Shown: positions 24,641 through 41,229 of the stretch, one piece after another | Layout: each line of letters begins with the position of its first letter | How positions within the stretch are numbered: position 1 is the stretch's first letter | Assembly (NCBI RefSeq): GCF_003149145.1 | Contig: NZ_QGDQ01000019.1 | Span: 1 to 64,000, forward strand | Length of the DNA stretch: 64,000 nt | Source: Quadrisphaera granulorum | GTDB lineage: Bacteria > Actinomycetota > Actinomycetes > Actinomycetales > Quadrisphaeraceae | Direction: 5' to 3' | Position numbers and translations under genes: made by a program | The notes under the pieces: generated by a model | What the model was told of the DNA's origin: nothing | What the model saw: the letters and a program-made list of their open reading frames with translations, nothing else | The model's database searches: none

Positions 24641-24656
24641 TACCCCCGGGGGGGTA
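24641..24656. promoter_or_regulatory. CsoR-type copper operator 1
   Basis: AATACCCCCGGGGGGGTAAT: TACCCC and GGGGTA arms around a CG-rich centre, upstream of copZ and divergent from the His-rich gene. Confidence 0.7.
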
Positions 24657-24673
24657 ATACCTTGATGAGGTGG

Positions 24674-24688
24674 TACCCCCCAGGGGTA
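24674..24688. promoter_or_regulatory. CsoR-type copper operator 2
   Basis: TACCCCCCAGGGGTA within GGTACCCCCCAGGGGTACA, 33 bases before the copZ start codon. It matches boxes at 37212 and 38720. Confidence 0.75.
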
Positions 24689-24720
24689 CACGGTGGATGA
24701 CCGGTCGAGAGGAGCTGACG

Positions 24721-24930
24721 ATGGACAAGCGCTACCAGGTGAGTGGTATGACCTGCGGCCACTGCGAGACCTCCGTGCGCGAGGAGGTCAGCGTCCTGGC
24801 CGGGGTGCGTGAGGTCGAGGTGGACGCCAGCACTGGAGTCCTGGTCGTCAAGGCCACCCAGGACGTGCCCACCTCCCAGGTGCTGGCCGCGGTCGAGGAG
24901 GCCGGCTACACCGCTGTCCCCGTGCCGTGA
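24721..24930 (+). CDS. copZ: CopZ-type copper chaperone (HMA domain)
   Basis: 69-residue heavy-metal-associated domain: YQVSGMTCGHCETSVREEVSVLAGV holds the Cu(I)-binding CxxC, and VLAAVEEAGYTAV is the usual final helix and strand. It carries Cu(I) to the CopA ATPase encoded downstream. ATG at 24721 has GAGGAG about 8 bases upstream. Its stop overlaps the GTG of the next small gene. Confidence 0.93.
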   Translation: MDKRYQVSGMTCGHCETSVREEVSVLAGVREVEVDASTGVLVVKATQDVPTSQVLAAVEEAGYTAVPVP

Positions 24931-25213: not shown

Positions 25214-27580
25214 ATGAGCACGACGAACCCCTCCGCACCCGCGGACTCGTCCACCCTCGCCCTGCAGATCCAGGGGATGACGTGTGCCTCCTGTGCCATG
25301 CGCATCGAGCGCAAGCTGAACAAGCTCGACGGCGTCAACGCCACGGTGAACTACGCCACCGAGAAGGCCCAGGTCAGCATTCCCAAGGGCTTCGACCCCG
25401 CAGTGCTGCTGACCGAGGTCAGCAAGGCCGGCTACACCGCGGTCCTGCCTCCCGCCCCTGCCCCCAGGCGCCCACCGGTGCCCGGTGGTGGCTCGGAGAC
25501 CGACGCCTCAGCCCCGGCAGCCGGGTCATCGGCCGCGGACGGCGGTGAGCAGACCAGCGCCGAGCGCGAGCTGACCTCGCTGCGCCAGCGGCTCATCGGT
25601 GCGGTGGTGCTGACAGTGCCCGTGGTCGCCATGGCCATGATCCCCGCGCTGCAGTTCACCTACTGGCAGTGGGCCTCCCTGGCCCTGGCCGCCCCCGTCA
25701 TCGTGTGGGGAGCCTGGCCCTTCCACCGGGCTGCGTGGGTCAACCTGCGCCACGGCAGCGCCACCATGGACACCCTGGTCTCCGTGGGCACCGCCGCAGC
25801 GCTGGCCTGGTCGCTGTACGCCCTCTTCCTGGGCACCGCGGGCATGCCCGGGATGGTCCACCCCTTCGAGCTGACCCTGGCCCCGTCGGACGGGGCGGGG
25901 AACATCTACCTCGAGGTCGGCGCGGGGGTGACCACCTTCGTCCTGGCGGGGCGCTACGTGGAGAAGCGCTCCAAGCGGCGCGCCGGAGCCGCCCTGCGGG
26001 CCCTGCTGGATCTGGGTGCCAAGCAGGTCGCCGTCCTGCGCGACGGGGTGGAGCACACCGTCGCCATCGACGATCTCGCCGTGGGCGAGGACTTCCTCGT
26101 CCGCCCCGGCGAGAAGATCGCCACCGACGGTGTCGTGGTCAGCGGCACCTCCGCCGTGGACGCCTCCATGCTCACCGGGGAGTCGGTGCCCGTGGAGGTC
26201 AGCGCCGACGACGAGGTCGTGGGAGCCACGCTGAACGTCGGCGGGCGCCTGGTGGTGCGCGCCACCCGGGTGGGCGAGCAGACCCAGCTGGCCCAAATGG
26301 CCCGCCTGGTCGAGGCCGCCCAGAACGGCAAGGCCCAGGTCCAGCGCCTGGCTGACCAGATCTCTGCGGTCTTCGTCCCGGTCGTCCTGGTCATCGCCGT
26401 CATCACTCTGGGTGCCTGGCTGGGGGCCGGTTTCCCGGCCTCGGCGGCCTTCACCGCCGCAGTGGCCGTCCTGGTCATCGCCTGCCCCTGCGCCCTGGGC
26501 CTGGCTACCCCGACCGCGCTGCTCGTCGGCACCGGTCGCGGCGCCCAGATGGGCATCTTGATCAAGGGCCCGGAGGTACTGGAGTCCACGCGCCGCATCG
26601 ACACCGTCGTCATGGACAAGACCGGCACCGTCACCACCGGCCAGATGAGCCTGGTCCGGACCATCCCCGCCCCCGGCGTCGACGAGGCCGAGCTGCTGCG
26701 CCTGGCGGCCGCACTCGAGGACGCCTCCGAACACCCCATCGCCCGAGCTGTCGTCGTAGGCGCCCGCACCAACGGTCGGGCTGACGATCGGACCAGCGGC
26801 CAGGTGCTGCCCGTGCCCACCAGTTTCACCACCGACGAGGGCCGCGGGGTGCACGGCACCGTGGAAGGCCGCTCCGTCGTCGTGGGTCGGGCCTCGCTGC
26901 TGGCCCAGCACGGCGCGCCCCTGAGCGAGGACCTGGCCGCCACCAAGGCCGAGGCCGAGTCCCGCGGGTCCACCGTGGTCGCCGTCGGCTGGGACGGCGC
27001 GGCCCGCGGCCTGCTCGTCATCGCCGACACCGTCAAGGCCACCAGCGCCCAGGCCGTGGCCGCGCTGAAGGAGCTGGGCCTGACCCCGGTCCTGCTCACC
27101 GGTGACAACGAGGCCGTCGCCCGCGACGTCGCCGCCCAGGTGGGCATCACCGAAGTCATCGCCGAGGTGCTGCCCCAGGACAAGGTCGCCACCGTGCGCG
27201 CCTTGCAGGAGGCGGGCAAGAAGGTCGCCATGGTTGGGGACGGCATCAACGACGCCCCCGCCCTGGCCCAGGCCGACCTCGGCCTGGCGATGGGCACCGG
27301 CACCGACGTCGCCATGCAGGCCTCAGACCTGACCCTGGTGGGAGGGGACCTGCTTGGCGTGGTCGATGCGATCCGCCTGTCTCGGCGGACCCTGGCCACG
27401 ATCAGGTCCAACCTGTTCTGGGCCTTCGCCTACAACACCGCTGCGATCCCGGTCGCTGCGCTGGGGCTGCTCAACCCGATGCTGGCCGGAGCGGCCATGG
27501 CCCTCTCCAGCGTCTTCGTGGTGGGCAACAGCCTGCGCCTGCGCCGCTTCACCGCGACCGAGCCCATGGGCTCCCGTTAG
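25214..27580 (+). CDS. copA: Copper-translocating P1B-type ATPase
   Basis: Cu(I) export ATPase, 788 residues. Order: N-terminal HMA domain ([21 protein letters not shown]), eight membrane helices, the actuator TGES ([11 protein letters not shown]), the metal-site CPC in [16 protein letters not shown], the phosphorylated DKTGTVT, the HP locus [13 protein letters not shown] and [16 protein letters not shown]. Helices 7-8 carry [16 protein letters not shown] and [25 protein letters not shown], matching the P1B-1 (Cu+) class. It follows copZ and the small protein, with csoR downstream. Confidence 0.97.
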
Positions 27581-27796
27581 CACCACCGTGCAGGTGGCCC
27601 CGAGCCCTGCCCGCGGCACGCGTCCAGGTGCTCACGGCCGGCCAACGTCGGACAGGAGCGGACCGGGATCTTGGGCGAGTGACCAGTCCCGGCCTGCGCG
27701 CATGAGCGAGCGCGTGAGCCACCATGGTGCCGCTGAACCACTCCACCCACCCCGTCACCCCTATCCGCACGTCGGTGCAGGCCCAAGGAGTCGTCC

Positions 27797-28129
27797 ATGA
27801 CCGACCACCCCGCCCCCGAGGCGACCGAGGACACCCCGAGCGCCCACCACCACGGCTACATCAGCGACAAGGACCGCTACCTCACGCGCCTGAAGCGCAT
27901 CGAGGGGCAGGTCCGTGGTCTGCAGCGCATGGTGGAGAACGAGGCGTACTGCATCGACATCCTCACCCAGATCAGCGCCATGACCGCGGCCACCGAGAAC
28001 GTCGCCCTCGGCCTCCTGGATGACCACCTCAAGCACTGCGTGGTCGACGCGGCTCGTGCGGGCGGCCCTGAGGCGGAGGAGAAGATCGCCGAAGCCTCCG
28101 CGGCCATCGCCCGGCTGGTGAAGTCCTGA
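27797..28129 (+). CDS. csoR: CsoR copper-sensing repressor
   Basis: 110-residue four-helix repressor of the CsoR/RcnR family. RYLTRLKRIEGQVRGLQRMVE is the DNA-facing helix; Cu(I) ligands follow the C-H-C pattern: Cys in AYCIDIL, His in LLDDHLKHC and Cys in the same motif. It lies 216 bases after copA, with AAGGAG seven bases before its ATG. The TACCC...GGGTA palindromes in the window are its likely targets. Confidence 0.95.
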   Translation: MTDHPAPEATEDTPSAHHHGYISDKDRYLTRLKRIEGQVRGLQRMVENEAYCIDILTQISAMTAATENVALGLLDDHLKHCVVDAARAGGPEAEEKIAEASAAIARLVKS

Positions 28130-28272: not shown

Positions 28273-29706
28273 TCACCTCAGAACCTGCCCGCTGAGGGCC
28301 GTCCAGAGCGGCCCAGCCCCCACTCCGAGCACGAGGACCACGGCAGCGGCGCTGACTGCTGCGGCCGCAGCACTCGAAGGTCCCCGGCTCACCTGTCCGG
28401 CGTCCTCATCGGCTGGTGCCTTCGCGAAAGCAGCCGCCAACCAGCGCAGGTAAGGGAACAACGAAGCGGCAGTCGCGACCGCGCCCAGCACCACCAGCCA
28501 GGCCAGTCCCCCGTCCCAGGCCGCGGTGAAGGTGGTGAGCTTCCCGACGAAGACTGCGGTGGGCGGTGTTCCCACCAGACCCAGCAGCGACACCAGCAGA
28601 GCTGTACCCACCCAGGGCCGTCGCCGGGCGGCCCCGCGCCAAGCCTCGCGGGTGCGTCGGTGTGGCTCAGCAGCGACCACGGCGAAGGCAGCGAGGTTGG
28701 CGGCGGCGTACCCGGCCAGGTACAGCAGTAGCGAGGGTTGCGCCAGATCGCTGCGGCCCGCAGCCGCCACCGGGAACAGCAGGAAGCCGGCCTGGGAGAC
28801 CGTGGACCACCCCAGAAGTCGGCGCACGTCGTCCTGCCCGAAGGCCGCCAGCACGCCCAGCAGCGCCGTCGCCGCCGCGATGCCGGCAACGACGGTGCCG
28901 GTCTGGACGGCCCCGCTCTGGACGGTGGCATCGACCAGCCGGTAGGCCGCGATGAGGCCGCCGATCTTGGGCACGGTGGTGGCGAAGGCGGCCAGCGCGG
29001 TCCGTGCTCCCTGTGCGGTGTCGGGCACCCAGAAGTGGCCAGGAACCGCCCCGGCTTTGAACAGCAGCCCTCCCAGCGTCGCCACGACCCCGACAGCAAC
29101 CAGCGGTCGTGGCACCTGGCCTGAACGCAGCCCACTGACCAGCTCCGCATAGGTGCTGCCGCCGGCCAGCGCCACCAGCACCACGACGCCGAGGAGCATG
29201 ACGATGCCCAGCAGCGCGCCGAGCAGGTACGTCTTCAAGGCGGCCTCAGCGGCTGCTGGTGTCCGCGCCAGTCCCACCAGCGCGTACAGCGGGATGCTCG
29301 CCAGCAGGTAGGCCACCGCCAGCACGAGCAGGTCGCTGGCGCCGGCGAGGACCACCGCGCCGAGCGCTGCAGCCAGCAGCAGCGAGCAGATCTCGCTCTC
29401 GCGCGGGTCACCCGCCAGCTCATCGCGTCCCAGCAGAAGCACCAGCAGCGTGGCAGCGCAGATCAGCATCCGCGCCGTCGTGGTCGGCGCGTCCAGGGCG
29501 TAGCTGGCCTGGAAGGCTAGTGAACCCATGGCGGGCGAGGCCGGCCCCACCAGCGCGGTGACCGCGGCCGCAACCAGAGCCAGGACGGCGACCACCCGCG
29601 ACCAGCGCTGCCGCTCACGCGCCAGGAAACTGCCCATGAGCAGGCACGTCACGGTGCCGACCAGGAGGCAGACCTCTGGGGTCAGCATGGCCACGTCGTG
29701 CTCCAC
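28273..29706 (-). CDS. nuoN: NuoN-like complex-I-type membrane subunit
   Basis: Antiporter-like subunit of 477 residues with about 14 helices. Family marks are SYALDAPTTTARMLICAATLLVLLLGRDEL, KAGAVPGHFWVPDTAQGA (helix 7 Lys and HFWxPD) and GWSTVSQAGFLLFP. The helix-5 Glu of canonical NuoN (ELISLPL in E. coli) is not kept: the segment reads LLASIPLYALVG. Last gene of an eight-gene unit; three bases separate it from nuoM. No soluble-arm gene is adjacent. Confidence 0.9.
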   Translation of the reverse strand: MEHDVAMLTPEVCLLVGTVTCLLMGSFLARERQRWSRVVAVLALVAAAVTALVGPASPAMGSLAFQASYALDAPTTTARMLICAATLLVLLLGRDELAGDPRESEICSLLLAAALGAVVLAGASDLLVLAVAYLLASIPLYALVGLARTPAAAEAALKTYLLGALLGIVMLLGVVVLVALAGGSTYAELVSGLRSGQVPRPLVAVGVVATLGGLLFKAGAVPGHFWVPDTAQGARTALAAFATTVPKIGGLIAAYRLVDATVQSGAVQTGTVVAGIAAATALLGVLAAFGQDDVRRLLGWSTVSQAGFLLFPVAAAGRSDLAQPSLLLYLAGYAAANLAAFAVVAAEPHRRTREAWRGAARRRPWVGTALLVSLLGLVGTPPTAVFVGKLTTFTAAWDGGLAWLVVLGAVATAASLFPYLRWLAAAFAKAPADEDAGQVSRGPSSAAAAAVSAAAVVLVLGVGAGPLWTALSGQVLR

Positions 29707-29709
29707 GGC

Positions 29710-31317
29710 TCAGCTCCCCGCCGGTGCCGCCACCGAGGCCGCGACCGCGTCCGTCGCGGAGGGGGTGACCACCGAGGTGATCCACGCCGACGTCGGAGCG
29801 ATGACGTCCAGCAGCGGCTGGGGTGCCACACCGATAGCGGTGGCCAGCACCAGCAGCACCACCACGGGCACCGCCTCGGCTGCCCGCAGGTCGGCGAACC
29901 CGCCCCGCGGGGCTCGCGCTGGCCCGGTCAGCAGGTGCTGCAGTGCCCGCAGGAACAGTGCGGCGGTGATCAGGATGCCCAGCAGTGCGACCGCGGTCAC
30001 CGGCGCTGTCGCGATGCTGCCGGCGAAGACCTGCAGCTCGGCGACGAAGCCGCTGAAGGCCGGCAGCCCGAGGGAGGCGAAGGAGGCCACCGCTAACAGC
30101 GCCGCCCACCGCGGCGCCAGCCGTCCCAGGCCGCTGACGGTGCTGCCGGGCCCCATCGCGTAGGTGCCGGTGCGGTCGCGCAGCACCCCGGCCAGCAGGA
30201 ACAACGCAGCGGTGATCAAGCCGTGGCTGACCATCTGCGTCACGGCCCCCATCACCGCCAGCTGCTGGCTGCTGGCCGCGGCGGCCCCCAGGGCGCTGCC
30301 AGCCCCACCTGCGGGCGCGCCGGAAGCCGCAGATGCCGCAGAACCCCCCGCCAGGCCCGCCGCTCCGAGCGCGAGCACCACGTACCCCATGTGGTTCACC
30401 GAGGTGTAGGCCACCATCCGCTTGAAGTCGCTCTGAGCCAACGCCACCAGCGCCCCATAAAGCGCGGAGACGATCCCGAGGGTCACGACGACCCATGCCG
30501 CAGCGCGCCAGGCATCGGGCAGCAGCGGCATCACGACCCGCACCAGGCCGTAGGTGCCCAGCTTGAGCATCACCCCCGCCAGGACCACCGAACCGATGGT
30601 CGGTGCGTCGGTGTGCGCGGGTGGCAGCCAGGTGTGCACGGGCGCCACGGGCGTCTTGATGCCCAACCCGACCAGCGCCGCGACCAGCACCAGCACCCCG
30701 GTGGTCGGTGATCCCTGTAGCGGCGGGTTCGCCGCCAGCTCGACGATGTCGAAGGTGTGCGGTGCCGATGCCAGGTAGAGCCCGATGAAGGCGACCAGCA
30801 GGGCCAGGGAGCCCAGGAAGGTGTAGAGGAAGAAGCGCAGCGCTGAGCGCGCCCGGTCCCCATGGCCCCACCCCGCGATGGAGAAGTACATCCCCACGAT
30901 CGACAGGTCGAAGAAGACGAAGAACAGCACCAGGTCCTGCGCGGCGAAGACGCCCAGGCAGGCGGTCTGCAGGAACAGGAACAGCGCTGCCTGAGCCCGC
31001 GGGCGGTGCGCCTCGCGCAGCGCGTACACCGCACAGGCCAGGAAGACCACACACGTCAGCGCCGCCAGCGGCAAGGAGATGCCATCCAGGCCCACGTGGT
31101 AGCTGGTCCCGACAGCCGGGATCCATCGGACCCGCTGCTCGAAGGTCAGGCCACCGGGGGCGGGGGTGCGGTAGGCGAGGGCCATCGCGACGACCAGGAC
31201 CAGCTCGGCTCCGGCAACAGCCACCCAGGCCCAGCGCGCTGCCGCGTCGGGCACGCGCGGCAGTACAGCTAGGGCACCAGCCGCGACCAGCGGCATGAAG
31301 ACGAGCAGGCTCAACAC
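29710..31317 (-). CDS. nuoM: NuoM-like complex-I-type membrane subunit
   Basis: 535-residue antiporter-like subunit. VGLDGISLPLAALTC, the FFDLSIVGMYFSIAGWG segment (Asp in place of the usual helix-5 Glu), GIKTPVAPVHTWLPPAHTDAPTIGSVVLAGVMLKLGTYGLVR and KRMVAYTSVNHMGYVVL are strong NuoM signatures, including the helix-7 Lys and HTWLPxAHxxAP. An Ala/Gly insertion (about residues 325-345) enlarges one loop. Lies between nuoL and nuoN on the minus strand. Confidence 0.93.
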   Translation of the reverse strand: MLSLLVFMPLVAAGALAVLPRVPDAAARWAWVAVAGAELVLVVAMALAYRTPAPGGLTFEQRVRWIPAVGTSYHVGLDGISLPLAALTCVVFLACAVYALREAHRPRAQAALFLFLQTACLGVFAAQDLVLFFVFFDLSIVGMYFSIAGWGHGDRARSALRFFLYTFLGSLALLVAFIGLYLASAPHTFDIVELAANPPLQGSPTTGVLVLVAALVGLGIKTPVAPVHTWLPPAHTDAPTIGSVVLAGVMLKLGTYGLVRVVMPLLPDAWRAAAWVVVTLGIVSALYGALVALAQSDFKRMVAYTSVNHMGYVVLALGAAGLAGGSAASAASGAPAGGAGSALGAAAASSQQLAVMGAVTQMVSHGLITAALFLLAGVLRDRTGTYAMGPGSTVSGLGRLAPRWAALLAVASFASLGLPAFSGFVAELQVFAGSIATAPVTAVALLGILITAALFLRALQHLLTGPARAPRGGFADLRAAEAVPVVVLLVLATAIGVAPQPLLDVIAPTSAWITSVVTPSATDAVAASVAAPAGS

Positions 31318-31334: not shown

Positions 31335-33350
31335 TCAGGCGCTCGGCGCCAGGGCGAGCAAGACAGCAGCCAGCAGCAGCACCACCGCAGCCGCCGCGTA
31401 GTAGCGGTGCAGTTGCCCGCTCTGGGAGCGCCGCGCCAGACGGCCAGCGGCGCGGGCGGCGGCGGCGACGCTGCGCACGGCACCGTCGACGCGCCGGTCA
31501 TCGAAACGAGCAGCGCCGCGCGCCGTCGAGGTAGCGGCGGCCGCAACAGCGCTCACGCCGCGGTCCAGCCCACGGTCATCCCAGCGCGCCAGCACGGTGG
31601 CCAGGCCCACCACGGGGCGCACCACCAGGGCGTGTGCGGCGGCTTCCAGCCCCAGCCAGCCCTGTAGCCAGTCCTGCAGCCGGGTCCGCAGCCCGCTCTG
31701 TCGCCACTCGGCTGTCGGACCCGCCGCAGCCGAGGAGTAAGAGGAGGAGGACGACGATGAGGGCACCGATGAGGTGGTGGGTGACGAGCGGCGCAGTTGT
31801 GCCGCGATGACCACGGCAACTACTACGAGGGCAACCACCCCCGACAGCACCAATTCACCGACGCTCGGTGTGGCCGGTGGAGCGCCAGCACGGTCGAGAG
31901 CCCCTCGCAGTCGCTGCGCCACTGGCGGCAGGGCGAGTGCTCCCAGCACCGCAGCTGCCGCCGCGAGCACCACCAGCGGCACCCGCTGCAGCCCACCGAC
32001 ACCACCGGCGTGGGGTGTCCAGTGTGCTGTGGCGGAGCCGTGGTCCCCGGGGCCCGTGCGGTCCTCTTCCTCGCGGGTCCTAGGGCTCGTGGTGATCTGC
32101 GGTTCGGGACCCAAAAGCACCGCCAACGCCTTGGCGGCGTAAGCAGCCGCCAGGGCAGCGCCCAGCAGACCAGCGAGGTACAGCGCCGGGGAGACCTCTC
32201 GCGCCGCGGCCAGCACGCCGTCCTTGGCGGCCCACAGCGACAGCGGCGGCAAACCCGCTAGCGATGCCAGGCCCACCGCGGCGCACACTCCGATCACTGG
32301 CCATCGCCGCCCGGCTCCGCGCAGGGCGGACAGCTGCCTCGTGCCCAGCAGGGACAACCAGGCGCCCGCCGCGAGGAACAGCAGGGCCTTGGTCGCCGCG
32401 TGGGCGACCAGCTGCACCGCCCCACCGGAGACCGACCCGATGCCCGCGGCCAGCACCACGTAGCCCAGCTGCGAAGCCGTCGAGGCGGCCAGCAGCTGCT
32501 TCAAGTCGCGCTGGGCCAGGGCGACCGCACCGAGCACCACCGCCGTCACCACCCCGACCCAGGCGGCGGTGGCCGACGCCCAGCTCGTGGCAGCCAGCAG
32601 GTCGGTGGTGCGCAGCAGCAGGAAGGTCCCCAGCGCCACCATCGTCGCGGAGTGCAGCAGCGCGCTGACCGGGCTGGGGCCGTCCATGGCGCGTGACAGC
32701 CAGAATGAGACGGGCAGCTGAGCTGATTTCCCGATCGCGGCGGCCAGGACGCCAGCGGCGGCCACCGAGCGCCAGGGCTCGTGCGCTACGGGCAGGTCTG
32801 CCAGGGCCAGCCCTGGAGCCCCTGCCACGGCGGCCGCTACAGCGAGGTAGAGGCCCAGGTCACCGGTCCGCGTCACCAGGAAGGCCGTGGTCCCTGAACC
32901 CACCGTCCGCGCCTGGCGCCACGGATAGCCGATCAGGGCGAAGGAGCAGGCCCCCATCAGCTCCCAGGCCAGCAGCAGCCCGGGGAGGGCTGTCGCCGTG
33001 GCCGTCGTGGCCGCTGCTGCACTGAAGATGAGCAGCAGGCCGAAGAAGCGGGCTCGGTGCTCGTGGATGTCGCCGGCGGCGAAGATGACGACCAGCAGCA
33101 CGGCGGAGGCTGAGGTGACCAGCATCAGCGCGCCCAGGGGGTCCACTGCCAGATCGAGTCCGCCGGCCACCACCAGCGGGGCACCAGCGGAGGGGTGCAG
33201 CACCGCTGCCGTGACCGCCAGCACCAGGCCGGCTGCGGCGGTCACGACCGCTGCTGGCGCAGCTGCCTTGTCCAGCCGGTGCCCGACCAGCGCCAAGACG
33301 GCACCGGTGGCAGCTGGCAACAGCACGACCGCCCACAGCAGTGAGCTCAT
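31335..33350 (-). CDS. nuoL: NuoL-like complex-I-type membrane subunit
   Basis: About 671 residues. LLAWELMGACSFALIGYPW keeps the helix-5 Glu; IGKSAQLPVSFWLSRAMDGPSPVSALLHSATMVALG matches the helix-7 region with Lys and the discontinuous helix (usual AMAGPTPVSALIHAATMV); KQLLAASTASQLGYVVLAAG follows. The long C-terminal part includes a Ser-rich cytosolic stretch (about residues 540-560) and a hydrophobic end, but the lateral helix HL is not obvious. The ATG at 33350 is preferred to the GTG at 33362. Confidence 0.93.
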   Translation of the reverse strand: MSSLLWAVVLLPAATGAVLALVGHRLDKAAAPAAVVTAAAGLVLAVTAAVLHPSAGAPLVVAGGLDLAVDPLGALMLVTSASAVLLVVIFAAGDIHEHRARFFGLLLIFSAAAATTATATALPGLLLAWELMGACSFALIGYPWRQARTVGSGTTAFLVTRTGDLGLYLAVAAAVAGAPGLALADLPVAHEPWRSVAAAGVLAAAIGKSAQLPVSFWLSRAMDGPSPVSALLHSATMVALGTFLLLRTTDLLAATSWASATAAWVGVVTAVVLGAVALAQRDLKQLLAASTASQLGYVVLAAGIGSVSGGAVQLVAHAATKALLFLAAGAWLSLLGTRQLSALRGAGRRWPVIGVCAAVGLASLAGLPPLSLWAAKDGVLAAAREVSPALYLAGLLGAALAAAYAAKALAVLLGPEPQITTSPRTREEEDRTGPGDHGSATAHWTPHAGGVGGLQRVPLVVLAAAAAVLGALALPPVAQRLRGALDRAGAPPATPSVGELVLSGVVALVVVAVVIAAQLRRSSPTTSSVPSSSSSSSYSSAAAGPTAEWRQSGLRTRLQDWLQGWLGLEAAAHALVVRPVVGLATVLARWDDRGLDRGVSAVAAAATSTARGAARFDDRRVDGAVRSVAAAARAAGRLARRSQSGQLHRYYAAAAVVLLLAAVLLALAPSA

Positions 33351-33387
33351 CTGCGCGCTCACTCGGTGGCCGCCGCTCTCGCCCGGC

Positions 33388-33690
33388 TCACTGGGACAGC
33401 TCCGTGGCGGAGTCGGTCATGTCCGAGCCGCGGGTCCGGTGCTGCAGCACCGCCACCGCGAAGCCCATGGCCATGTCGACGGTCATCGCGGCGACCACCA
33501 CCAAGAGCAGCAGGTGGCCGCTGGGGGACGGCGACAGGAACCACCACAGCCCTCCAGCAGCCAGGATGACGCCGTTGAGCATGAGTTCCAGCCCCATCAT
33601 CACCATCACCACGACCTGCTGGGACAGCGCTCCGTACAGGCCGATGCTGAACAGGGCAGCTGCGATCAGCAGCACCGCTTCCAAGGTCAC
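33388..33690 (-). CDS. nuoK: NuoK-like complex-I-type membrane subunit
   Basis: 100 residues, three helices. VMVMMGLELMLNGV contains the conserved helix-2 Glu (Glu-36 type). The second acidic site, usually AAAExAIGL, reads AAMTVDMAMGFAV, an Asp in the equivalent place. Starts inside the nuoJ stop codon, so translation is coupled. Confidence 0.93.
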   Translation of the reverse strand: MTLEAVLLIAAALFSIGLYGALSQQVVVMVMMGLELMLNGVILAAGGLWWFLSPSPSGHLLLLVVVAAMTVDMAMGFAVAVLQHRTRGSDMTDSATELSQ

Positions 33691-34256
33691 CGCCCCACAC
33701 CTCCGTGGTGGGGGTCCGACGGCGCTGAGCGCAGGTCGTCCCCAAAGCGGTCGTAGCGGGTGCGCGGCGCGGCCAGTACGACCGCAGCGACGACGGTGGC
33801 GAACAGGACGGGGCTGATACCCATCATCACCAGCATCTTCGAGCCCATGATCGTCTCGCCCAGTGAGGCGGTGAGGTCAGCGGCGGGGGCCGCGCGTCGC
33901 TGCGGCCACGGCACCGTTACGATCCCCGCGGCGAGCACGAGGAAGACCCCCGCCGAGATGCCCAGAGCCGTGCGCCGGCTGTGGACCATGCTCATGGGCA
34001 TGAGAGCGGGGTTCATCCCCATGAACATGATCATGTAGATGGCCATCACGGCCATCTCCATGACCATCATGAGCACGGTCACCAGCCCCACGTAGTCCAG
34101 TTGCAGCAGGAGCAGCGCAGCGCCCACCGCGATGAAGGAGACGGCCAGGGCGTAGGTGGCACGTGCCATCGAGTCGAAGCGGAACACCAGCGCCCCGCTG
34201 ACGACGGCAAGCACCCCCAGCACCCAGAACACCAGTCCGGTGATTAGGTCGCTCAT
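33687..34256 (-). CDS. nuoJ: NuoJ-like complex-I-type membrane subunit
   Basis: 189 residues, five helices. FWVLGVLAVVSGALVFRFDSMARATYALAVSFIAVGAALLLLQLDYVGLVTVLMMVMEMAVM retains the helix-3 pattern of NuoJ, with an unusual run of methionines from here to MFMGMNPALMPMSMVHS. That Met-rich cluster faces a loop and could bind copper, in keeping with the neighbouring fusion protein. Overlaps nuoK at its 3' end. Confidence 0.9.
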   Translation of the reverse strand: MSDLITGLVFWVLGVLAVVSGALVFRFDSMARATYALAVSFIAVGAALLLLQLDYVGLVTVLMMVMEMAVMAIYMIMFMGMNPALMPMSMVHSRRTALGISAGVFLVLAAGIVTVPWPQRRAAPAADLTASLGETIMGSKMLVMMGISPVLFATVVAAVVLAAPRTRYDRFGDDLRSAPSDPHHGGVGR

Positions 34257-34259: not shown

Positions 34260-35192
34260 TCAGCTCCTCCCCAGGACGACCAGGCTGACGACGAGCAGCT
34301 GCGCCAGTGCCACCGGCAAGCCGACCAGCCATCCCACCTCAGCCAGGCGATCCGGGCGTAGCAGTGGCAACCGTCGGGCCAACACCACCAGCGCCGCCAT
34401 CACCAGCAGCGTCTTGAGCAGCGACCACGCCCAGGCGGGCAGCAACGGGCCGGCGCCACCCCCGAGGAAGAGCGCAACGGCCACCGCCGACCCCGCCGCC
34501 AGCAGTGCCCACCGACCGGCCAGGACCAGCAGCCGGTCCACCCCGGACAGCTCCGCGAGAACGCCACCCGCGAGATCCGGCCCGCTGCCCGTAGAGAAGG
34601 GGCCCCACAGTGAGAAGGCGAGCACGCAGGCGCAGAACAGGGCGAAGGACGCCGGCATCCACACCACGAACCACAGCTGCGACTGCGCCGCCACGATGTC
34701 ACCCACCCGCAGACTGCCAGCGGCTACAGCGGGCGCTACCAGGGCGAACATCAGCGGCAGCTCGTAGGACAGCGCCTGAGCGAGGTAGCGATGGGCACCC
34801 ACCAGCGCGTGCGCGCTGTTCGCCCCCCAGCCCAGCAGCCAGGCCGCCGCCCACACCAGCACGTCGACGGCGTTCACCCAGACGACCCCGACGCCGAGGT
34901 CCGCCAGGGTCCAGTTACCCAGCGGCACGACACCCACCATCAACACCGCAGCCACCAGCAGCGTCCCGCCACCGCCGCGCCACAACGGCCGGTCTGCGCC
35001 CAGCAGCACGCGGCGGCGCTGGCGCATCAACCGCGCTGCTTCGTAGGCGGGAGCGAGCAGGCCGGCCACCGGCCGCTGACCTGTGGCACCCGCGGAGAGC
35101 GCGCCGCTGAACGCTGCGCCGGCCGCGGCCACGCCCATCAGCAGCAATACAGCAGCAGGAGCCCACACCCAGGACACGCCCACGACGTCCAC
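34260..35192 (-). CDS. nuoH: NuoH-like complex-I-type membrane subunit
   Basis: 310 residues. Eight-helix subunit that links quinone site and proton channels in complex I. GANSAHALVGAHRYLAQALSYELPLMFALVAP matches the SYE-type helix; DLAGGVLAELSGVDRLLVLAGRWALL matches E-x-S-G but has Arg-Trp where canonical NuoH has the acidic GEY. So one or more quinone-cavity acids appear altered. Starts next to the stop of the fusion gene upstream. Confidence 0.88.
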   Translation of the reverse strand: MDVVGVSWVWAPAAVLLLMGVAAAGAAFSGALSAGATGQRPVAGLLAPAYEAARLMRQRRRVLLGADRPLWRGGGGTLLVAAVLMVGVVPLGNWTLADLGVGVVWVNAVDVLVWAAAWLLGWGANSAHALVGAHRYLAQALSYELPLMFALVAPAVAAGSLRVGDIVAAQSQLWFVVWMPASFALFCACVLAFSLWGPFSTGSGPDLAGGVLAELSGVDRLLVLAGRWALLAAGSAVAVALFLGGGAGPLLPAWAWSLLKTLLVMAALVVLARRLPLLRPDRLAEVGWLVGLPVALAQLLVVSLVVLGRS

Positions 35193-36692
35193 TCAGGCCA
35201 CCGCCTCGGCCGCCACGGCGCCACCAGCCGCGTCGGCGCCGCCGGCGTCAGGGCCATGCTCAGGCTCGGGAAACACGCCACGGGACTCGAGGTCGAGGCT
35301 GGCCACGGTGAGTCGCACCTCGGCGAGCTCTCGCCCGATCAGCAGGCTCGGAAGGGCCTCGACTGCACGATGGCGGTGCCCGTACGACGTCGGGGCTGCC
35401 GCGACAGGGTCCGCGGCGAGGCGCAGGGAAGCGATCAGTCGGTCGTGAACGTCGCCCTGGTCGCCAGCCGGCAACCCAGCCTTCTCGATCTGATCATCTT
35501 TCAGGTCGCCCAGGCCCCGGAGGGACCAGCGCAGCGTGCGGGAGCGCTGAACACGAGCCAGCAGACCGGCGAGCTCTCCATCAAGATCGATCTGTCGACC
35601 AGTGTCGGCGCTGCCTACCTCGGTGCCCATCTGCAATGCATCGCGCAGGCGCACGGCAGCGGCGGCGTACCGCGAGCCGGCCAAGGCGAGGATCCGCGCG
35701 GCCCGCTCACACGCCGCCACGCGGGCATCGACGCGCTCCGGCGCGGCGGCCTCGTCCAGGTGGTGGGCGTGGGCGTCCACCACCACATCACCTTGAAGCG
35801 TCACCGTGACGACCAGGCCGCTCGGCCACAGACCGAGCACCGGACCGAGCTGGACGTGCAGGACGTCCATCTCCAAGCCATCGCGGTCCTCCCCACCGCT
35901 GGCCAACGCGATGCCACCGGGGCCGGACATGTCCATGCCGCCGTGGTCGGACATGTCCATGCCGCCGTGGTCCATGTCGCCGTGGTCGGACATGTCCATG
36001 CCGTCGTGGTCCATGTCGCCGTGGTCGGACATGTCCATGTCGCCGTGGTCGGACATGTCCATGTCGCCGTGGTCGGACATGTCCATGTCGCCGTGGTCGG
36101 ACATGTCCATGTCGCCGTGGTCGGACATGTCCATGTCGCCGTGGTCGGACATGTCCATGTCGCCGTGGTCGGACATGTCCATGCCGCCGTGGTCCATGTC
36201 GCCGTGGTCGGACATGTCCATGTCGCCGTGGTCGGACATGTCCATGTCGCCGTGGTCCATGCCGCCGTGGTCCATGTCGCCGTGGTCAGACATGTCCATG
36301 TCGGCGTGGCCAGAATCGGTTGGCTGTTCCTGGGGTCGATTGGTTGCGTCGCGGCGCTGGAAGTCGTCGTCAGACAGCCGCTCCAAAACGTGACCCAGGG
36401 CGGACTCGACGCCCATGGGGCTGTCAACGTCCACGCGAGCCCTCGGGCCAGGCAGCTGCTGCCAGACCACTTCCGCGGCTGCGGCCAGTTCTCCAGACAG
36501 CGGGCCGCAAGTGATCAGTGCGTCAGCCTCGGCGGGAGAGTGGGCCATCACCCAGCCGCGCTCAGCGGCAACGCGCTCCAGCGCGAACCGGGTGACGTCA
36601 CGCCCAGGCTCTGCCACCACCAAGTAGTGAGGGCGCTTGAGGGCTGTGCCCTTGAGCCATGCCTTGAGTCCTCGAGCCCTCGTCAGACCCAC
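35193..36692 (-). CDS. Degenerate NuoB/NuoD-like fusion with Met/His/Asp repeats
   Basis: 499 residues, the only soluble-arm candidate of the cluster. Residues 8-90 (GLKAWLKGTALKRPHYLVVAEPG ... ADALITCGPLSGELAAAAEVVWQQLPGPRARV) resemble the NuoB fold but carry a single Cys instead of the four that hold cluster N2. Residues about 129-258 are tandem DMDMSDHG octapeptides with variants DMDHGG and GMDH. Residues about 270-460 (GLEMDVLHVQLGPVLGLW ... LQGDVVVDAHAHHL ... ARILALAGSRYAAAAVRLRDAL) faintly recall NuoD. Start overlaps the nuoA stop by ten bases. Complex-I membership rests on position and weak similarity; Cu or other metal binding by the repeats is inference. Confidence 0.6.
   Translation of the reverse strand: MGLTRARGLKAWLKGTALKRPHYLVVAEPGRDVTRFALERVAAERGWVMAHSPAEADALITCGPLSGELAAAAEVVWQQLPGPRARVDVDSPMGVESALGHVLERLSDDDFQRRDATNRPQEQPTDSGHADMDMSDHGDMDHGGMDHGDMDMSDHGDMDMSDHGDMDHGGMDMSDHGDMDMSDHGDMDMSDHGDMDMSDHGDMDMSDHGDMDMSDHGDMDMSDHGDMDHDGMDMSDHGDMDHGGMDMSDHGGMDMSGPGGIALASGGEDRDGLEMDVLHVQLGPVLGLWPSGLVVTVTLQGDVVVDAHAHHLDEAAAPERVDARVAACERAARILALAGSRYAAAAVRLRDALQMGTEVGSADTGRQIDLDGELAGLLARVQRSRTLRWSLRGLGDLKDDQIEKAGLPAGDQGDVHDRLIASLRLAADPVAAAPTSYGHRHRAVEALPSLLIGRELAEVRLTVASLDLESRGVFPEPEHGPDAGGADAAGGAVAAEAVA
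35921..36308. repeat. 24-bp coding tandem repeat array
   Basis: GTCGGACATGTCCATGTCGCCGTG-type 24-base units (and shorter variants) in tandem, about 390 bases, encoding the DMDMSDHG array. Several units are identical at DNA level, so the array is young and likely to vary in copy number between strains. Confidence 0.95.
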
Positions 36693-37045
36693 CTGAAGGC
36701 TCCCTCACGCCAGGCCCAGACGACCGCAATCAGGAGGACGCCCAAGAAGATGAACATCTCCACCACAGCCGACAGGCCCACGGTGGCGACCACCTCGACC
36801 CACGGGTACATGAAGAGCATCTCCACGTCGAAGGCCAGGAAGACCAGCGTCATCGGGTACCAGCGGGCGTGGAAGCGTGAGAGCGCGTGCTCCTGCGGCA
36901 TCGACCCCGAGAGGAAGGGCAGCGAGAGCAGAGCCTTGCTGTCCACAGCTGTGGACCTACTGACCAGCTGCGCCGCGGCGACGCCCACGATCACCGTCAA
37001 TAGGAGCGCCGCGAGTCCTGCGTACCCGGCCAACGGGACCTCCAC
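36683..37045 (-). CDS. nuoA: NuoA-like complex-I-type membrane subunit
   Basis: 120 residues with three helices. GSMPQEHALSRFHARWYPMTLVFLAFDVEMLFMYPWVEVV is the diagnostic NuoA region, with the conserved FDVE acid pair in helix 2. GTG start at 37045 with GAGGA close upstream. First gene of the complex-I-like unit; a CsoR-type palindrome and a separate perfect palindrome lie 120-180 bases upstream. Confidence 0.92.
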   Translation of the reverse strand: MEVPLAGYAGLAALLLTVIVGVAAAQLVSRSTAVDSKALLSLPFLSGSMPQEHALSRFHARWYPMTLVFLAFDVEMLFMYPWVEVVATVGLSAVVEMFIFLGVLLIAVVWAWREGAFRWV

Positions 37046-37164
37046 TTCCTCGGCTCACACCTGTGCCGCCACCTGCTCGGAACCTGTCCCAACCCGTCCT
37101 GCAGCGAAAGCACGCGACAGGGCACAGCGGGCGCCGCTCTGGTGCGAGCACCTTCCTTCACCGT

Positions 37165-37178
37165 TGCGGCATGCCGCA
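37165..37178. promoter_or_regulatory. Perfect 14-bp palindrome upstream of nuoA
   Basis: TGCGGCATGCCGCA, 120 bases before the nuoA start codon. No known site matches; it could be a second operator or a leader hairpin. Confidence 0.35.
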
Positions 37179-37211
37179 CCGAGAGGTGGCAAAGCACCCG
37201 CGAGTCGTCGG

Positions 37212-37226
37212 TACCCACTGGGGGTA
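37212..37226. promoter_or_regulatory. CsoR-type copper operator upstream of nuo-like cluster
   Basis: TACCCACTGGGGGTA; on the minus strand TATACCCCCAGTGGGTACC, where TATACC could be the -10 hexamer. It shares TACCCC...GGGTACC with the boxes at copZ and at the DUF6153 gene. Confidence 0.65.
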
Positions 37227-37416
37227 TAGCGCGTGAAGTGTCCTTGCGCCTCATGAGAGGGGCATCGCGCCGTCCGGCCGCGACCAGCCGAGTCCCACCG
37301 GCAGCGTCGTCTACTGGAACACCGGATCTTGATCCGTTTCGGGGCCGACAGGATGGTGCGGCGCCGCAGCAGGCGCCGCACCATCCCGTTCTAGGGGTGC
37401 TTCTGCGTGGTTGCGG

Positions 37417-38136
37417 TCAGCCCTGCAGGGTTTGCAGCATCTGGTCCATCTCGGCGATCTCCGCGGTCTGGGAGGTCACGATCGTCCCGGCCAGCTCGAT
37501 GGCCTGGGGGTTGGACCCGTCGGCCTGCTCGGTCTTGGCCATGTCGACAGCGCCCTGGTGGTGCACGGTCATCTGCTCCAGGAAGAGCTTGTCGAACTCA
37601 GCACCGGAGGCCCCCTCCAGCGCGGCCATGTCCTCCTCGCTCATGCCCATCGAGCCCATGTCGTGACCACCCATCGAGCCCTCCTCCATCGTCTCGGGGG
37701 CGTCCCAGGCCTGCAGCCACCCCGTCATCTGGGCTATCTCTGGAGTCTGGGCGGCCTGGATGCGCGAGGCGAGGTCACGGACCGCGGGGTCCTGCGCGCG
37801 GTCGCCGGCGAGCATCGCCATCTGCACCGCGCCCTGATGGTGGACGATCATTTGCTGGGCGAACATGATGTCGGCGTCGTTGTGCTCCGCCGAGACCGCC
37901 GATGATGCTGAGGCCACGGCCGCCGGGTCAGGGGTGACCGCCGCCGAGCTCATCGGAGCGCTCGAGCTGGACGAGGTGCCCGAGTCCGAGGAGCCCATGG
38001 AGGACATGTCGTGGCCGCCGCCGGAGCAGGCGGTCAGGACCACCGCCAGGGCGACGGCGCCGCCGGCAGCGCCCAGGGCGCGCAGGGCGGAGGTGCGGGC
38101 GAGGTGGTGACGCAGGTCGGAACTGGTGCGAGGCAT
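37417..38136 (-). CDS. DUF305 lipoprotein, Met/His-rich
   Basis: 239 residues. The signal peptide ends in lipobox LTACSG. Two DUF305 repeats follow: DIMFAQQMIVHHQGAVQMAMLAGDRAQDPAVRDLASRI and FDKLFLEQMTVHHQGAVDMAKTEQADGSNPQAIELAGTI, each with the M-x-x-H-H-x-x-A-x-x-M-A motif that in this ferritin-like family can hold metal. Met-rich linkers (GHDMSSMG, GGHDMGSMGMSEEDM) add ligands. AAGGAG stands seven bases before the ATG at 38136. Second gene of a unit under a CsoR-type operator; probably an extracytoplasmic copper binder. Confidence 0.88.
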   Translation of the reverse strand: MPRTSSDLRHHLARTSALRALGAAGGAVALAVVLTACSGGGHDMSSMGSSDSGTSSSSSAPMSSAAVTPDPAAVASASSAVSAEHNDADIMFAQQMIVHHQGAVQMAMLAGDRAQDPAVRDLASRIQAAQTPEIAQMTGWLQAWDAPETMEEGSMGGHDMGSMGMSEEDMAALEGASGAEFDKLFLEQMTVHHQGAVDMAKTEQADGSNPQAIELAGTIVTSQTAEIAEMDQMLQTLQG

Positions 38137-38188
38137 GACTCTCCTTGAAAAGGGTGTGCGGATCACAGGGGCGGGGGTGAGCCCGCTC

Positions 38189-38689
38189 CTAGACCCGGAT
38201 CACGCACAGGGAGAGACGCAGAAGCTGGCCGCGAGGAGGACCGCGACGCAGCAGCCACCCGCCCGCTGACGCACCACTGGGCAGCATGACCAGAGCCATC
38301 ACGACGACGGCGACCAGCGCGGCTGCACCGAGCGCCGTCGCGGCGTTCGCCGGCGGCGCCGACAGGTCACACGCGACGGCGTGAGCCGAGGTGGGGGCGC
38401 TGTGACCGGCGCCGTCGGGGTGGCACAACTGTTCGCTGGCTCGCTCGAGCGTCGTGCCGTCGGCTGATCCGACCAGCATCGACGATGCGACGGCGGCAGG
38501 AGCGCTTCTGGCCATCGAGCCGTGCTCGGCCGTTGACGACCCCGAATGCCCGCTCGCGCTGGCTGCGTGCATCGAGCCGTGAGCACCCAGGACGCTCATC
38601 AGCGGTACGTGCATGGTGAGGATCCCGGCCACCAGCGCACCGGCGAGCAGGATCAGCGCTGCGTGAAGCAGTCCCCGCCTGTGCGCCAC
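38189..38689 (-). CDS. DUF6153-type membrane protein
   Basis: 166 residues. N-terminal helix (LLHAALILLAGALVAGILTMHVPL), a His/Met/Ser-rich extracytoplasmic loop with two Cys (EQLCHPDG and AVACDL), a second helix, then a basic tail ending LSLCVIRV. This matches the layout of DUF6153 proteins, which occur with copper-resistance genes and DUF305 lipoproteins in actinobacteria. The stop lies 52 bases before the DUF305 start. A CsoR-type palindrome sits 31 bases before its start codon. Confidence 0.7.
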   Translation of the reverse strand: MAHRRGLLHAALILLAGALVAGILTMHVPLMSVLGAHGSMHAASASGHSGSSTAEHGSMARSAPAAVASSMLVGSADGTTLERASEQLCHPDGAGHSAPTSAHAVACDLSAPPANAATALGAAALVAVVVMALVMLPSGASAGGWLLRRGPPRGQLLRLSLCVIRV

Positions 38690-38719
38690 ACCTGCCTCCT
38701 CCGGATGAGATCACGACGG

Positions 38720-38734
38720 TACCCCACAGGGGTA
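38720..38734. promoter_or_regulatory. CsoR-type copper operator upstream of DUF6153/DUF305
   Basis: TACCCC-ACA-GGGGTA, perfect 6-bp arms; minus strand reads AATACCCCTGTGGGGTACC, almost identical to the copZ and nuoA boxes. Confidence 0.75.
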
Positions 38735-38838
38735 TTCCTCGCATACTCGTGCCCACGCGTGGTACCTGCCGGGCCGAGAAGAAGCGGTGGCCGCCGTCCG
38801 CTGCCTCGTGCCGCCTGGACCTGCCCGAGGAAGGATCC

Positions 38839-39789
38839 TCAGGCGTCGGAGGTGGCCTGCTCGGAGAAGGTGCGGCCTCCGTCGCGGCTCGTGGCGATGC
38901 TAGGGTGCTCCCCTTCGCGGGCGACCGCGACGTGCAGCACGGTGGCCGTCGGCGCCTCCCCCACCGAGGGCGCCTCCGTTGCGGTAGGCGCTGCCGGTAC
39001 GGGGTTCTGTGAGGTGATGGCCTCGGGGGAGCCGCCGACGTCGCCGATGCGGTCCCACGAGGAGCCGGCGTCGGTGGAGTGCAGGACGGCGCCGTCGCCC
39101 TCGATGCCGTACAGATCACCGCCGTTGGTCCACTCCACCACCACCGGCAGGGGCGAGGAGGCCACGACCGACCACGTGCGTCCGCCGTCAGTGCTTCGTT
39201 GCAGGCCCTCAGCTGTGGTCGCCACCACCGTGGCAGGGTTGGAGGGGTCGATCGCCAGGTCACGTGCTGCCAGGTCGCTGCGTGCCTGCCAGGACTGGCC
39301 GGCGTCCTCGGAGGCCAGCAGCTGGCCGCTGATGGAGTCCCAGCCGTAGACCGTGTCGCCACGGGCGCGCAGCACGTGGAAGTCCACCTGCCCGCCCAGG
39401 GAGGTCTGCTCCCAGGACTGGCCACTGTCCCGGCTGACGACCAGGCCCAGGGGGTTGGGCAGGTCGGGGTCCACCGCGGTGTCGGGATGGCCAGAGCCCA
39501 GGAAGGTGCCGGGACCGGTGACGGTGAAGCCCATGGTGTCCTGGCGACGCTGACCCACCGGCCCCTCGACTCCGTCCGAGGTGGAGCGGTAGAGGCCATC
39601 GTGCGCGGCCACGTACAAGACACCGTCCGCGGGATCCACCCCGAGGCCGTGCATGTGGCCCCAGGTCGCCGTCGAGGCCTGCTCGGGTTGCCCTTCGCCC
39701 TGGCTGGGGGCCGAAGCGGTGCAGGCGGTCAGGGTGAGGCTCGCGCTGACGCCGACGACCCACAGCCTGGATGTGCTTCTCATGCTCAC
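38839..39789 (-). CDS. BNR/sialidase-like repeat lipoprotein (F510_1955-type)
   Basis: 316 residues with lipobox LTACTA after an N-terminal signal. Repeated Asp-box motifs SRDSGQSWEQ, SEDAGQSWQA, STDGGRTWSV, STDAGSSWDR and SRDGGRTF form a beta-propeller like exo-alpha-sialidases or YCF48. GHMHGLGVDPADGVLYVAAHDGLYR at the start fits the F510_1955 glycosylhydrolase-like group, commonly found beside copper or DUF305 genes. No sialidase catalytic triad can be made out, so an assembly or binding role is equally possible. Confidence 0.8.
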   Translation of the reverse strand: MSMRSTSRLWVVGVSASLTLTACTASAPSQGEGQPEQASTATWGHMHGLGVDPADGVLYVAAHDGLYRSTSDGVEGPVGQRRQDTMGFTVTGPGTFLGSGHPDTAVDPDLPNPLGLVVSRDSGQSWEQTSLGGQVDFHVLRARGDTVYGWDSISGQLLASEDAGQSWQARSDLAARDLAIDPSNPATVVATTAEGLQRSTDGGRTWSVVASSPLPVVVEWTNGGDLYGIEGDGAVLHSTDAGSSWDRIGDVGGSPEAITSQNPVPAAPTATEAPSVGEAPTATVLHVAVAREGEHPSIATSRDGGRTFSEQATSDA

Positions 39790-40919: not shown

Positions 40920-40930
40920 GTTGGGGGGTG

Positions 40931-41105
40931 GGCCTCTCCGACGCCTGCGAGGTGAGCTGTCGGGTTCGGGAGGTGAGGTCCCCCGGCTCGCTAGGCGAGC
41001 TTCACCCCGAGGACGCGACGACGCTCCCAAGAGCAGCGCGCCCGGAAGTGGTTCCCCCGTCCCCTGCCACAAAGATCTGTGGACCTCGAACGCGCTGGCA
41101 GGGGC
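40931..41105 (-). ncRNA. ydaO/yuaA-type c-di-AMP riboswitch
   Basis: Leader of the NlpC/P60 gene. On the minus strand the order is GGGGACGGGGGAACCA, then GGGGTGAAGCTCGCC, then CCCGAACCCGACAGCT immediately followed by CACCTCGCAGGCGTCGGAGAGG, which are the conserved blocks of the ydaO motif (GGGGAACC, GGGTGAA, CCCGAAyCCGwCAGCTAACCTCGyAGGC, GGAGAGG). In actinobacteria such switches turn off resuscitation-type hydrolases at high c-di-AMP. Ends are approximate. Confidence 0.85.
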
Positions 41106-41229
41106 TCGGCGTGCGCGACGAGAGCACTCGGTCATGTCCGAGAGCGACCGAAAAGTACCTGAAAGTCACAGATTCACTCAAGGGCGCCGTCGCCCGCGCC
41201 CGCCGCACTGCAGCACCTCGCCAAGCTCC

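Follow-up and report, generated by a model that had tools for sequence, protein, structure and literature searches.

It has long been asked what couples the proton-pumping arm of respiratory complex I to its driver, and a 64,000-nucleotide stretch of Quadrisphaera granulorum DNA (contig NZ_QGDQ01000019.1, positions 1 to 64,000; referred to here as the window) raises it for an arm that stands apart from its redox subunits. The second gene of an eight-gene cassette in this window encodes a protein, here called BD, in which a repeat dense in potential metal ligands lies between a NuoB-like part and a part derived from NuoD. The remaining seven genes encode membrane subunits of the complex I type. 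The evidence presented below indicates that the eight-protein set is very probably a complex I membrane arm repurposed for copper handling of some kind. That the cassette translocates Cu(I) coupled to protons we consider an evenly balanced possibility, and with slightly less assurance we propose that the arm evolved into a Cu(I) transporter driven by the proton motive force (PMF), in which BD and a ladder of Met and Glu residues in NuoJ replace the redox/quinone coupling site.

The cassette runs in the order NuoA-[BD]-NuoH-J-K-L-M-N on a single strand, with gene ends overlapping or closely spaced; BD, with a GTG start, overlaps the end of NuoA and abuts NuoH (Table 1). All P-module subunits of complex I (NuoA, H, J, K, L, M, N) are present. 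The gene order A-B/D-H-J-K-L-M-N, the subunit families and most proton-channel residues are shared with respiratory complex I, BD being descended from NuoB and NuoD. In contrast to complex I, none of NuoC, E, F, G or I occurs within the cassette (no genome-wide search was made for NuoE, F and G), the cysteine set of cluster N2 is missing, the quinone-site charges of NuoH are largely lost, and Met, His and Glu residues have been gained in NuoJ, K and A together with the metal-ligand-rich linker of BD. Complex-I-type antiporter subunits without redox cofactors couple proton flow to other tasks in Mrp Na+/H+ antiporters and DAB-type complexes, and in this respect the cassette resembles them. It differs from both in having NuoH, NuoA and BD, and its task appears to be copper; the best model of every membrane subunit was a Nuo and not an Mrp model, and a set of MrpA-G was not found. 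No DabA occurred among the named proteins, although no search aimed at DabA was made.

Our comparators were E. coli complex I and 12 canonical operons of actinomycetes and Lysobacter, each taken from a genome in which the cassette is present too; one of these operons was a canonical nuo operon held by a random control region (L123). In trees rooted on E. coli, the cassette family formed a clade apart from the 12 other canonical complexes for five subunits of the five tried, with clade support of 0.98 for H, 0.85 for M, 0.82 for N, 0.59 for L and 0.0 for J.

The repeat within BD is real and far beyond chance. Residues 128-260 of the window protein contain 44 Asp, 31 Met, 25 Gly, 18 His and 13 Ser, in keeping with the array of about 130 residues, rich in metal ligands, that the initial annotation had described. 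Among its nine exact octads, interspersed with MDHGG-type variants, eight are identical at the DNA level over 24 bp, and the Tandem Repeats Finder (TRF) score reaches up to 450 against 100 for the next-best array in the window. The number of exact octads varies, with two in a nearly identical relative and none in another, counts in which draft assemblies may have collapsed repeats. The recent expansion that the initial annotation read from the identical 24-base units is supported. A plus-strand open frame across the same region (34791-37229, 812 residues with a GHVHVAVV repeat) was rejected as a gene; it runs antisense to NuoA, BD and NuoH and is regarded as a high-GC shadow of the coding strand.

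To what is BD related? Across the relatives we found 83 BD proteins, of which the 73 with 300-520 residues were kept and, with that of the window, gave a family of 74. Taken alone, the window protein had no Pfam match and resembled NuoB weakly (NCBIfam NuoB, E 0.016-0.11; best NuoB chain in PDB, E 0.017). In PDB, the top matches of a family profile were NuoB chains from solved structures of complex I (E 2.7e-6), and alignment of the N-terminal part with NuoB by hhalign gave 94.9% (E 4.8e-8), while five unrelated or reversed controls all had E > 0.1; the hhalign input comprised 56 N-terminal and 60 C-terminal pieces of the 74, motif extraction having failed in the rest. The alignment spans the SPRQAD...YDQM.EPK core and leaves the cysteine-bearing parts of NuoB unmatched. 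Of the two Cys in the window protein (C62, C328), C62 alone sits in the NuoB-like part, and hence, judging from the sequence, the N2 cysteine set is absent from BD, as had been claimed.

The NuoD ancestry is more remote. NuoD likeness was not detected in the window BD or with the family profile against PDB, and a comparison of the C-terminal part with a profile of 13 canonical NuoD proteins by hhalign gave 3% (E 0.015), still the best of six comparisons. A Pfam scan of 55 BD members returned scattered weak matches, with PF01058 in 2 of the 55 (best E 0.11). PF00346 was recognized in two remote members that occupy the same cassette position as the window BD, L206 (48.4 bits, 8.5e-13) and L207 (49.9 bits, 2.9e-13; cut-off 24), and gave no match in the remote members L204 and L205. 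These matches support the NuoB/NuoD-like fusion proposed in the initial annotation, whose suggested search with PF01058 and PF00346 thus failed on the window protein and succeeded, for PF00346, on L206 and L207; the C-terminus of BD is a degenerate NuoD derivative that the model recognizes in these two proteins only. In L207 (BD at 8372-10651), a heavy-metal-binding domain (PF19335, 1.4e-14) lies between the NuoB-like and NuoD-like parts. The window genome (99% complete) has no match to PF01058 or PF00346, so the cassette there cannot borrow a canonical NuoB or NuoD. NuoD (PF00346) was found in 6 of 15 cassette-bearing relatives and in 14 of 16 named genomes; the cassette therefore occurs both with and without complex I.

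Over the family, the densest 40-residue window of BD holds a median of 14 His plus Met (range 6-19, n = 74), with at least 10 in 67 and at least 8 in 71 of the 74 members, against 5-8 in the canonical comparators (13 NuoB, 13 NuoD). The repeat units themselves differ by lineage (DMDMSDHG, MDHGGHEG, GHEEHA and others). The composition of the linker is thus mostly conserved and its sequence not, the repeat being in sequence the least conserved part of BD.

The membrane subunits were examined position by position, using E. coli residue numbers and roles as we take them to be. The numbers of proteins found and used after length selection, before the window was added, were 81/80 for NuoA, 82/82 for H, 82/76 for J, 80/80 for K, 79/78 for L, 78/78 for M and 78/77 for N. 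Residues kept in every aligned member include D79/E81 of NuoA (81/81), E157 of NuoH (83/83), E36 of NuoK (81/81), E144/K229/H254/H338/K399 of NuoL (79/79), K234/K265/E407 of NuoM (79/79) and K158/K247/K395 of NuoN (78/78); the E72 position of NuoK is Glu in 77 of 81 and Asp in 4 of 81, the window among them. Most proton-channel residues are thus conserved in the cassette arm, with exceptions in NuoL, M and N given below. NuoH has lost, wholly or mostly, the charges at R37, R38, R46, K70, E71, E216, E218 and further positions, and has gained charges elsewhere; those of the quinone site are largely gone, the equivalents of E216 and E218 being lost and those of R37 and R46 mostly so.

Invariant gains of Met, His and Glu are concentrated in NuoJ, K and A. 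Counting alignment columns with Met, His or Cys in at least 70% of the family and at most 30% of canonical proteins, there are 16 in NuoJ (14 of them in 77/77 members), 8 in NuoK (4 in 81/81) and 4 in NuoA (all in 81/81); NuoN has none. The Met fraction is raised over canonical proteins in NuoJ (0.097 vs 0.034), NuoK (0.097 vs 0.055) and NuoA (0.052 vs 0.031), and lies below them in NuoH, L, M and N (0.018-0.022 vs 0.030-0.039 in L, M and N). The third transmembrane helix (TM3) of the window NuoJ, with the loop after it, reads VLMMVMEMAVMAIYMIMFMGMNPALMPMSMVH. Here the position of E. coli Tyr59, which presumably lies within the coupling helix, is Met in 77 of 77 family members, and three residues beyond it stands a new Glu (E67 in the window), likewise in 77/77, where 13 of 13 canonical NuoJ have Ala. 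Among NuoJ columns, 15 of 18 with Met are conserved at 95% or more, against 20 of 93 with Leu, Ile, Val, Ala or Phe. The exact Met columns are invariant across 76 loci and 36 genus labels. Genus labels were assigned by hand, with separate labels for plasmid records here and for plasmid records and the window in the neighbor clustering below, so that true genus numbers in both are slightly lower. By eye, the core of this Met ladder is also visible in four remote loci outside the window's class (L204-L207), with some positions lost. The C-terminal tails of NuoJ are His-rich in L035 and L204-L206.

A connection to copper emerges from the neighborhood of the cassette. We grouped the neighboring open frames of 80 loci, of three plasmid stretches and of the window blind to function; these locus-based counts rest on 80 of the 207 relatives in GTDB genomes. 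Outside the cassette itself, the commonest neighbors (loci, genus labels) were CopM/DUF305 (30, 20), a copper-type P-type ATPase (26, 18), F510_1955 (23, 14), a DUF326/Csp-like copper-storage protein (22, 14), multicopper oxidase (19, 13), a second DUF305 group (17, 8), a potassium-channel-like protein (15, 5), CsoR (14, 10), ArsR (12, 6), CopZ (12, 7) and a TlpA-like protein (9, 7), as well as an unnamed 255-residue cluster at 8 loci; clusters of 92 and 638 residues had representatives inside the cassette span and were left uncounted. Seven copper-linked families (CopM, the ATPase, F510_1955, the Csp-like protein, multicopper oxidase, CsoR, CopZ) were then compared between 60 loci of at least 18 kilobases (kb) and 40 random 20-kb regions from six cassette-bearing genomes. 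At least one was present at 48/60 loci vs 2/40 controls, at least two at 41/60 vs 0/40 and at least three at 24/60 vs 0/40, and 25 of 29 genus labels had a copper-linked neighbor. Control families picked in the same manner were unenriched (ABC ATPase 7/60 vs 14/40; histidine kinase 10/60 vs 5/40). F510_1955 is tied to copper by co-occurrence alone, and no counted locus depends solely on it.

Plasmids carry comparable islands. That of Curtobacterium sp. C1 comprises multicopper oxidase, DUF305, CsoR, HMA, ATPase, the cassette and DsbA, with recombinase genes flanking both sides; whole copper islands occur likewise on plasmids of Pseudonocardia alni and Arthrobacter FB24, and 3-6 kb from the cassette of M. 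avium pMAH135 lie a heavy-metal ATPase gene and one for an HMA protein. As expected of a copper-resistance determinant, the cassette lies among copper genes, apart from 12 of the 60 well-flanked loci and four of the nine plasmid stretches viewed. In the window it is flanked by the CopZ-like/ATPase/CsoR set on one side (24670-28129) and by CopM, a DUF6153-like protein and F510_1955 on the other (37417-39789).

The sequences show that redox features have been lost from BD and NuoH and most of the proton path kept, that metal-type ligands have been gained at the junction, and that copper genes are neighbors. In the transporter that we propose, the eight proteins (NuoA, BD, H, J, K, L, M, N) would form one complex, with BD as a cytoplasmic subunit whose H/M/D-rich linker may gather Cu(I) at the heel of the arm. 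Cu(I) would then enter the TM3 Met ladder of NuoJ and adjoining residues of NuoK, NuoA and NuoH, which by homology would occupy the place of the quinone-coupled 'E-channel' of complex I. The PMF would drive proton influx through the three antiporter-like subunits, and this flow could power the movement of Cu(I), in the likeliest case outward. With several protons per copper, a very steep Cu(I) gradient would be possible, which would fit the very low free Cu(I) that bacteria hold in the cytosol. Met ligands are likewise spaced along the membrane path of the Cu(I) transporters CTR1 and CusA; the likeness lies in the ligands, the proteins and their energy coupling being presumably unrelated. Copper-resistance proteins of the CopA/PcoA/PcoB type are periplasmic and Met/His-rich, with MDHxxM-like repeats; BD differs from them in being fused into a complex I-type subunit, with no signal sequence recognized by eye. 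We know of no complex I superfamily member that moves a transition metal, and the cassette, if the proposal holds, would be the first. A natural arm that lacks quinone site and Fe-S chain, keeps most proton-channel residues and has another chemistry, apparently that of copper, in the same place would then directly test which residues couple the arm.

The copper buffer or sensor on a proton channel suggested by the initial annotation would use the same parts differently, with copper at the BD linker or NuoJ altering the conductance of a proton leak or pump and not being transported. The link between copper and the proton arm stands; the buffer or sensor role is not established, and we regard it as unlikely. 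The linker is rich in His, Met and Asp, probably cytoplasmic, and highly variable in sequence as in buffers, and most of the proton path is kept. A buffer or sensor, however, needs no chain of invariant Met through a membrane helix, and the invariant Met/His and new Glu of the membrane subunits speak more for a path by which copper crosses the membrane. Such a path could also lead inward or to secreted cuproenzymes (multicopper oxidase, CopM, the storage protein). Import or delivery would suit the recurrence of multicopper oxidase, CopM and thioredoxin/DsbA-like proteins close to the cassette, but the neighboring CsoR, CopZ, metal ATPase and storage-like protein indicate copper excess, and we consider this alternative quite unlikely. 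A redox machine with copper in place of the Fe-S/quinone chain, such as one that oxidizes Cu(I) or reduces Cu(II) while pumping protons, could draw on complex I ancestry and on candidate ligands for copper at the former site of coupling. The loss of most NuoH quinone-site charges speaks against it, no other cofactor site was recognized, and the ligands of the ladder are thioethers, which hold Cu(I) and disfavor redox change; it is accordingly very improbable in our view.

The operon has been described before, under a different interpretation. In the portions of the accounts considered here, nuoAHJKLMN is known as a 'partial NDH-1' operon that probably arrived by horizontal transfer, and is counted in the marine/osmotic adaptation set (PMC3314556, PMC4018334, PMC6002675, PMC6676996, PMC8622039). 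The same seven nuo genes stand as one operon in our cassette, the Salinispora operon (Penn and Jensen 2012, and followers) being compared by description only. Two counted carriers (PMC6002675, in part), Kocuria marina SO9-6 and K. polaris CD08-4, are the loci L052 and L080 here; since a NuoD match is absent from the genome of L052, the nuo genes of that strain probably belong to this cassette. In the same source, as far as considered, heavy-metal resistance is tied to copD and czcD and not to nuo, and a strain from copper mineral carries the operon; strain SM254 from copper-rich fluids also has it, which the portion considered explains by osmotic stress (PMC6676996). A plasmid survey gives Nuo subunits in 57 species, mostly as partial sets, and the part considered names neither a BD gene nor a copper link (PMC12361115). 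Within these limits the accounts mention no eighth gene, copper role or Met ladder, and a literature search, with supplements and most subscription papers outside its reach, found no paper tying the operon to copper.

The published reading, a pump that moves protons or sodium and serves adaptation to marine or osmotic conditions, accords with the reported distribution in marine Salinispora, Streptomyces and Kocuria (PMC3314556, PMC4018334, PMC6002675; portions considered) and with the channel residues, most of which are kept. Such a pump lacks a driver, with no redox subunits in the cassette and neither PF01058 nor PF00346 in the window genome; its neighbors are copper genes, the cassette also occurs in soil and clinical isolates, and the carriers from copper mineral and copper-rich fluids fit poorly. 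We therefore hold it to be highly improbable. Should the copper reading prove true, the 'marine adaptation' operon would be reassigned to copper handling as a new kind of bacterial copper machine. That the Met residues merely absorb oxidants in copper-stressed cells, or that the cassette is a degenerate remnant, is scarcely credible: Met can serve as an oxidant sink, but the Met fraction is up only in J, K and A and not in H, L, M and N, the exact Met columns are invariant, His and Glu were gained too, and reading frames are intact in most loci.

Several observations weigh against a proton-driven Cu(I) transporter. The linker is poor in His and Met in L088, L090 and L098 (6-7 in the densest window), and some BD members have their His-rich stretch at the C-terminus. 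Channel residues have changed: E144 of NuoM is Asp in 79/79; E133 of NuoN is Leu in 77/78, H305 Gln in 78/78 and K295 Arg in 62/78, with K217 kept in 72/78; and the H334 position of NuoL is His in 49/79 and Gln in 28/79. Met/His/Cys gains extend beyond J, K and A, to 10 columns in NuoM, 5 in NuoL and 3 in NuoH. A helical-face test of the TM3 Met residues of NuoJ was not significant (p 0.058, 0.085), and their placement relative to the E-channel follows from homology alone. None of the seven copper-linked families occurs at the 12 exceptional loci, all well flanked, and among 17 proteins scanned beside five of them (L037, L040, L054, L095, L113) no copper family was found. The four plasmid stretches without an annotated copper gene nearby are from Rhodococcus, Gordonia, Streptomyces NBC_00080 and Pseudarthrobacter, 9 of 16 matches having been viewed in a plasmid collection whose gene table is incomplete; the DUF305 gene of an Ornithinimicrobium plasmid lies about 11 kb from the cassette. 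The 60 loci of the enrichment test lack mutual independence, and just six genomes supplied all 40 control regions. Co-location cannot separate export from import, sensing or buffering, and many islands hold a metal ATPase, which leaves no obvious need for another exporter.

The cassette is mobile and widespread, mostly in Actinomycetota, and is sometimes plasmid-borne. Relatives of BD were found in 16 of 119 genomes, the window's own counted in (the match in G112 was to the repeat only and was excluded from later counts), and in 33 of 396 genomes drawn across the phylum (E up to 1e-6, matches not each inspected). GTDB genomes hold 207 BD places; the 80 listed include actinomycetes of many genera, two Lysobacter and one metagenome-assembled genome labeled Acidobacteria. 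BD also occurs on 16 plasmid records. In the two Lysobacter loci (L054, L055) BD keeps a linker rich in His and Met, and these cassettes suggest transfer out of the actinobacteria. On a Pseudarthrobacter defluvii plasmid (L196, 11998-14453), a gene for an IS3 transposase sits within the place that BD has in the cassette.

Table 1. Features of the cassette and its surroundings in the window.
Feature	Position	Strand	Basis
CsoR-operator-like palindrome TACCCCCGGGGGGGTA, perfect, 13 bases before the CopZ-like gene	24641..24656	+	
HMA-domain CopZ-like chaperone	24670..24930	+	PF00403 E 1.9e-14
Heavy-metal P-type ATPase with HMA domain; clusters with copper-type ATPase (L104 cluster)	25214..27580	+	
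CsoR-type metal-sensitive repressor	27797..28129	+	PF02583 E 7.5e-30
NuoN-like antiporter subunit; K158, K217, K247, K395 equivalents kept; E133 Leu, K295 Arg, H305 Gln	28273..29706	-	
NuoM-like antiporter subunit; E144 equivalent Asp; K234, K265, E407 equivalents kept	29710..31317	-	
NuoL-like antiporter subunit; channel residues kept, H334 position Gln	31335..33362	-	
NuoK-like; E36 kept, E72 position Asp, Met gained at 29, 31, 69, 73, 75	33388..33690	-	PF00420 E 1.4e-12
NuoJ-like; TM3 Met ladder, new E67	33687..34256	-	PF00499 E 2.5e-11
NuoH-like; quinone-site charges largely lost, E157 equivalent kept	34260..35192	-	PF00146 E 6.2e-44
BD protein, 499 residues; NuoB-like N-terminus, D/M/H/G/S repeat linker, NuoD-derived C-terminus	35193..36692	-	family profile comparisons, remote members
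Repeat array, coding for about residues 128-258 of BD; 9 exact DMDMSDHG octads plus variants	35919..36311	-	TRF, octad count
NuoA-like; gained H53, H59, M76, M79	36683..37045	-	PF00507 E 6.8e-23
CopM/DUF305 metallochaperone-family protein, adjoins cassette	37417..38166	-	NCBIfam CopM 105.7 bits (cut-off 90); PF03713 E 6.2e-50
Small protein, no Pfam family match	38189..38689	-	
F510_1955 family protein, recurrent neighbor	38839..39789	-	242 bits, cut-off 175

The small protein beside CopM resembles what we take to be DUF6153, and a DUF6153 protein also adjoins DUF305 in L197. A scan of the window for CsoR-like palindromes, based on what we assume to be the operator consensus, found none before the cassette; two with at most one mismatch occur in the window, a number also reached by 4 of 100 shuffles. 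Beyond the F510_1955 gene, a c-di-AMP (ydaO) riboswitch (40929-41091, minus strand) lies at the start of a gene at 40398-41135 that by eye looks like NlpC/P60, and two tRNA genes are found on the minus strand at 47330-47402 and 49291-49381.

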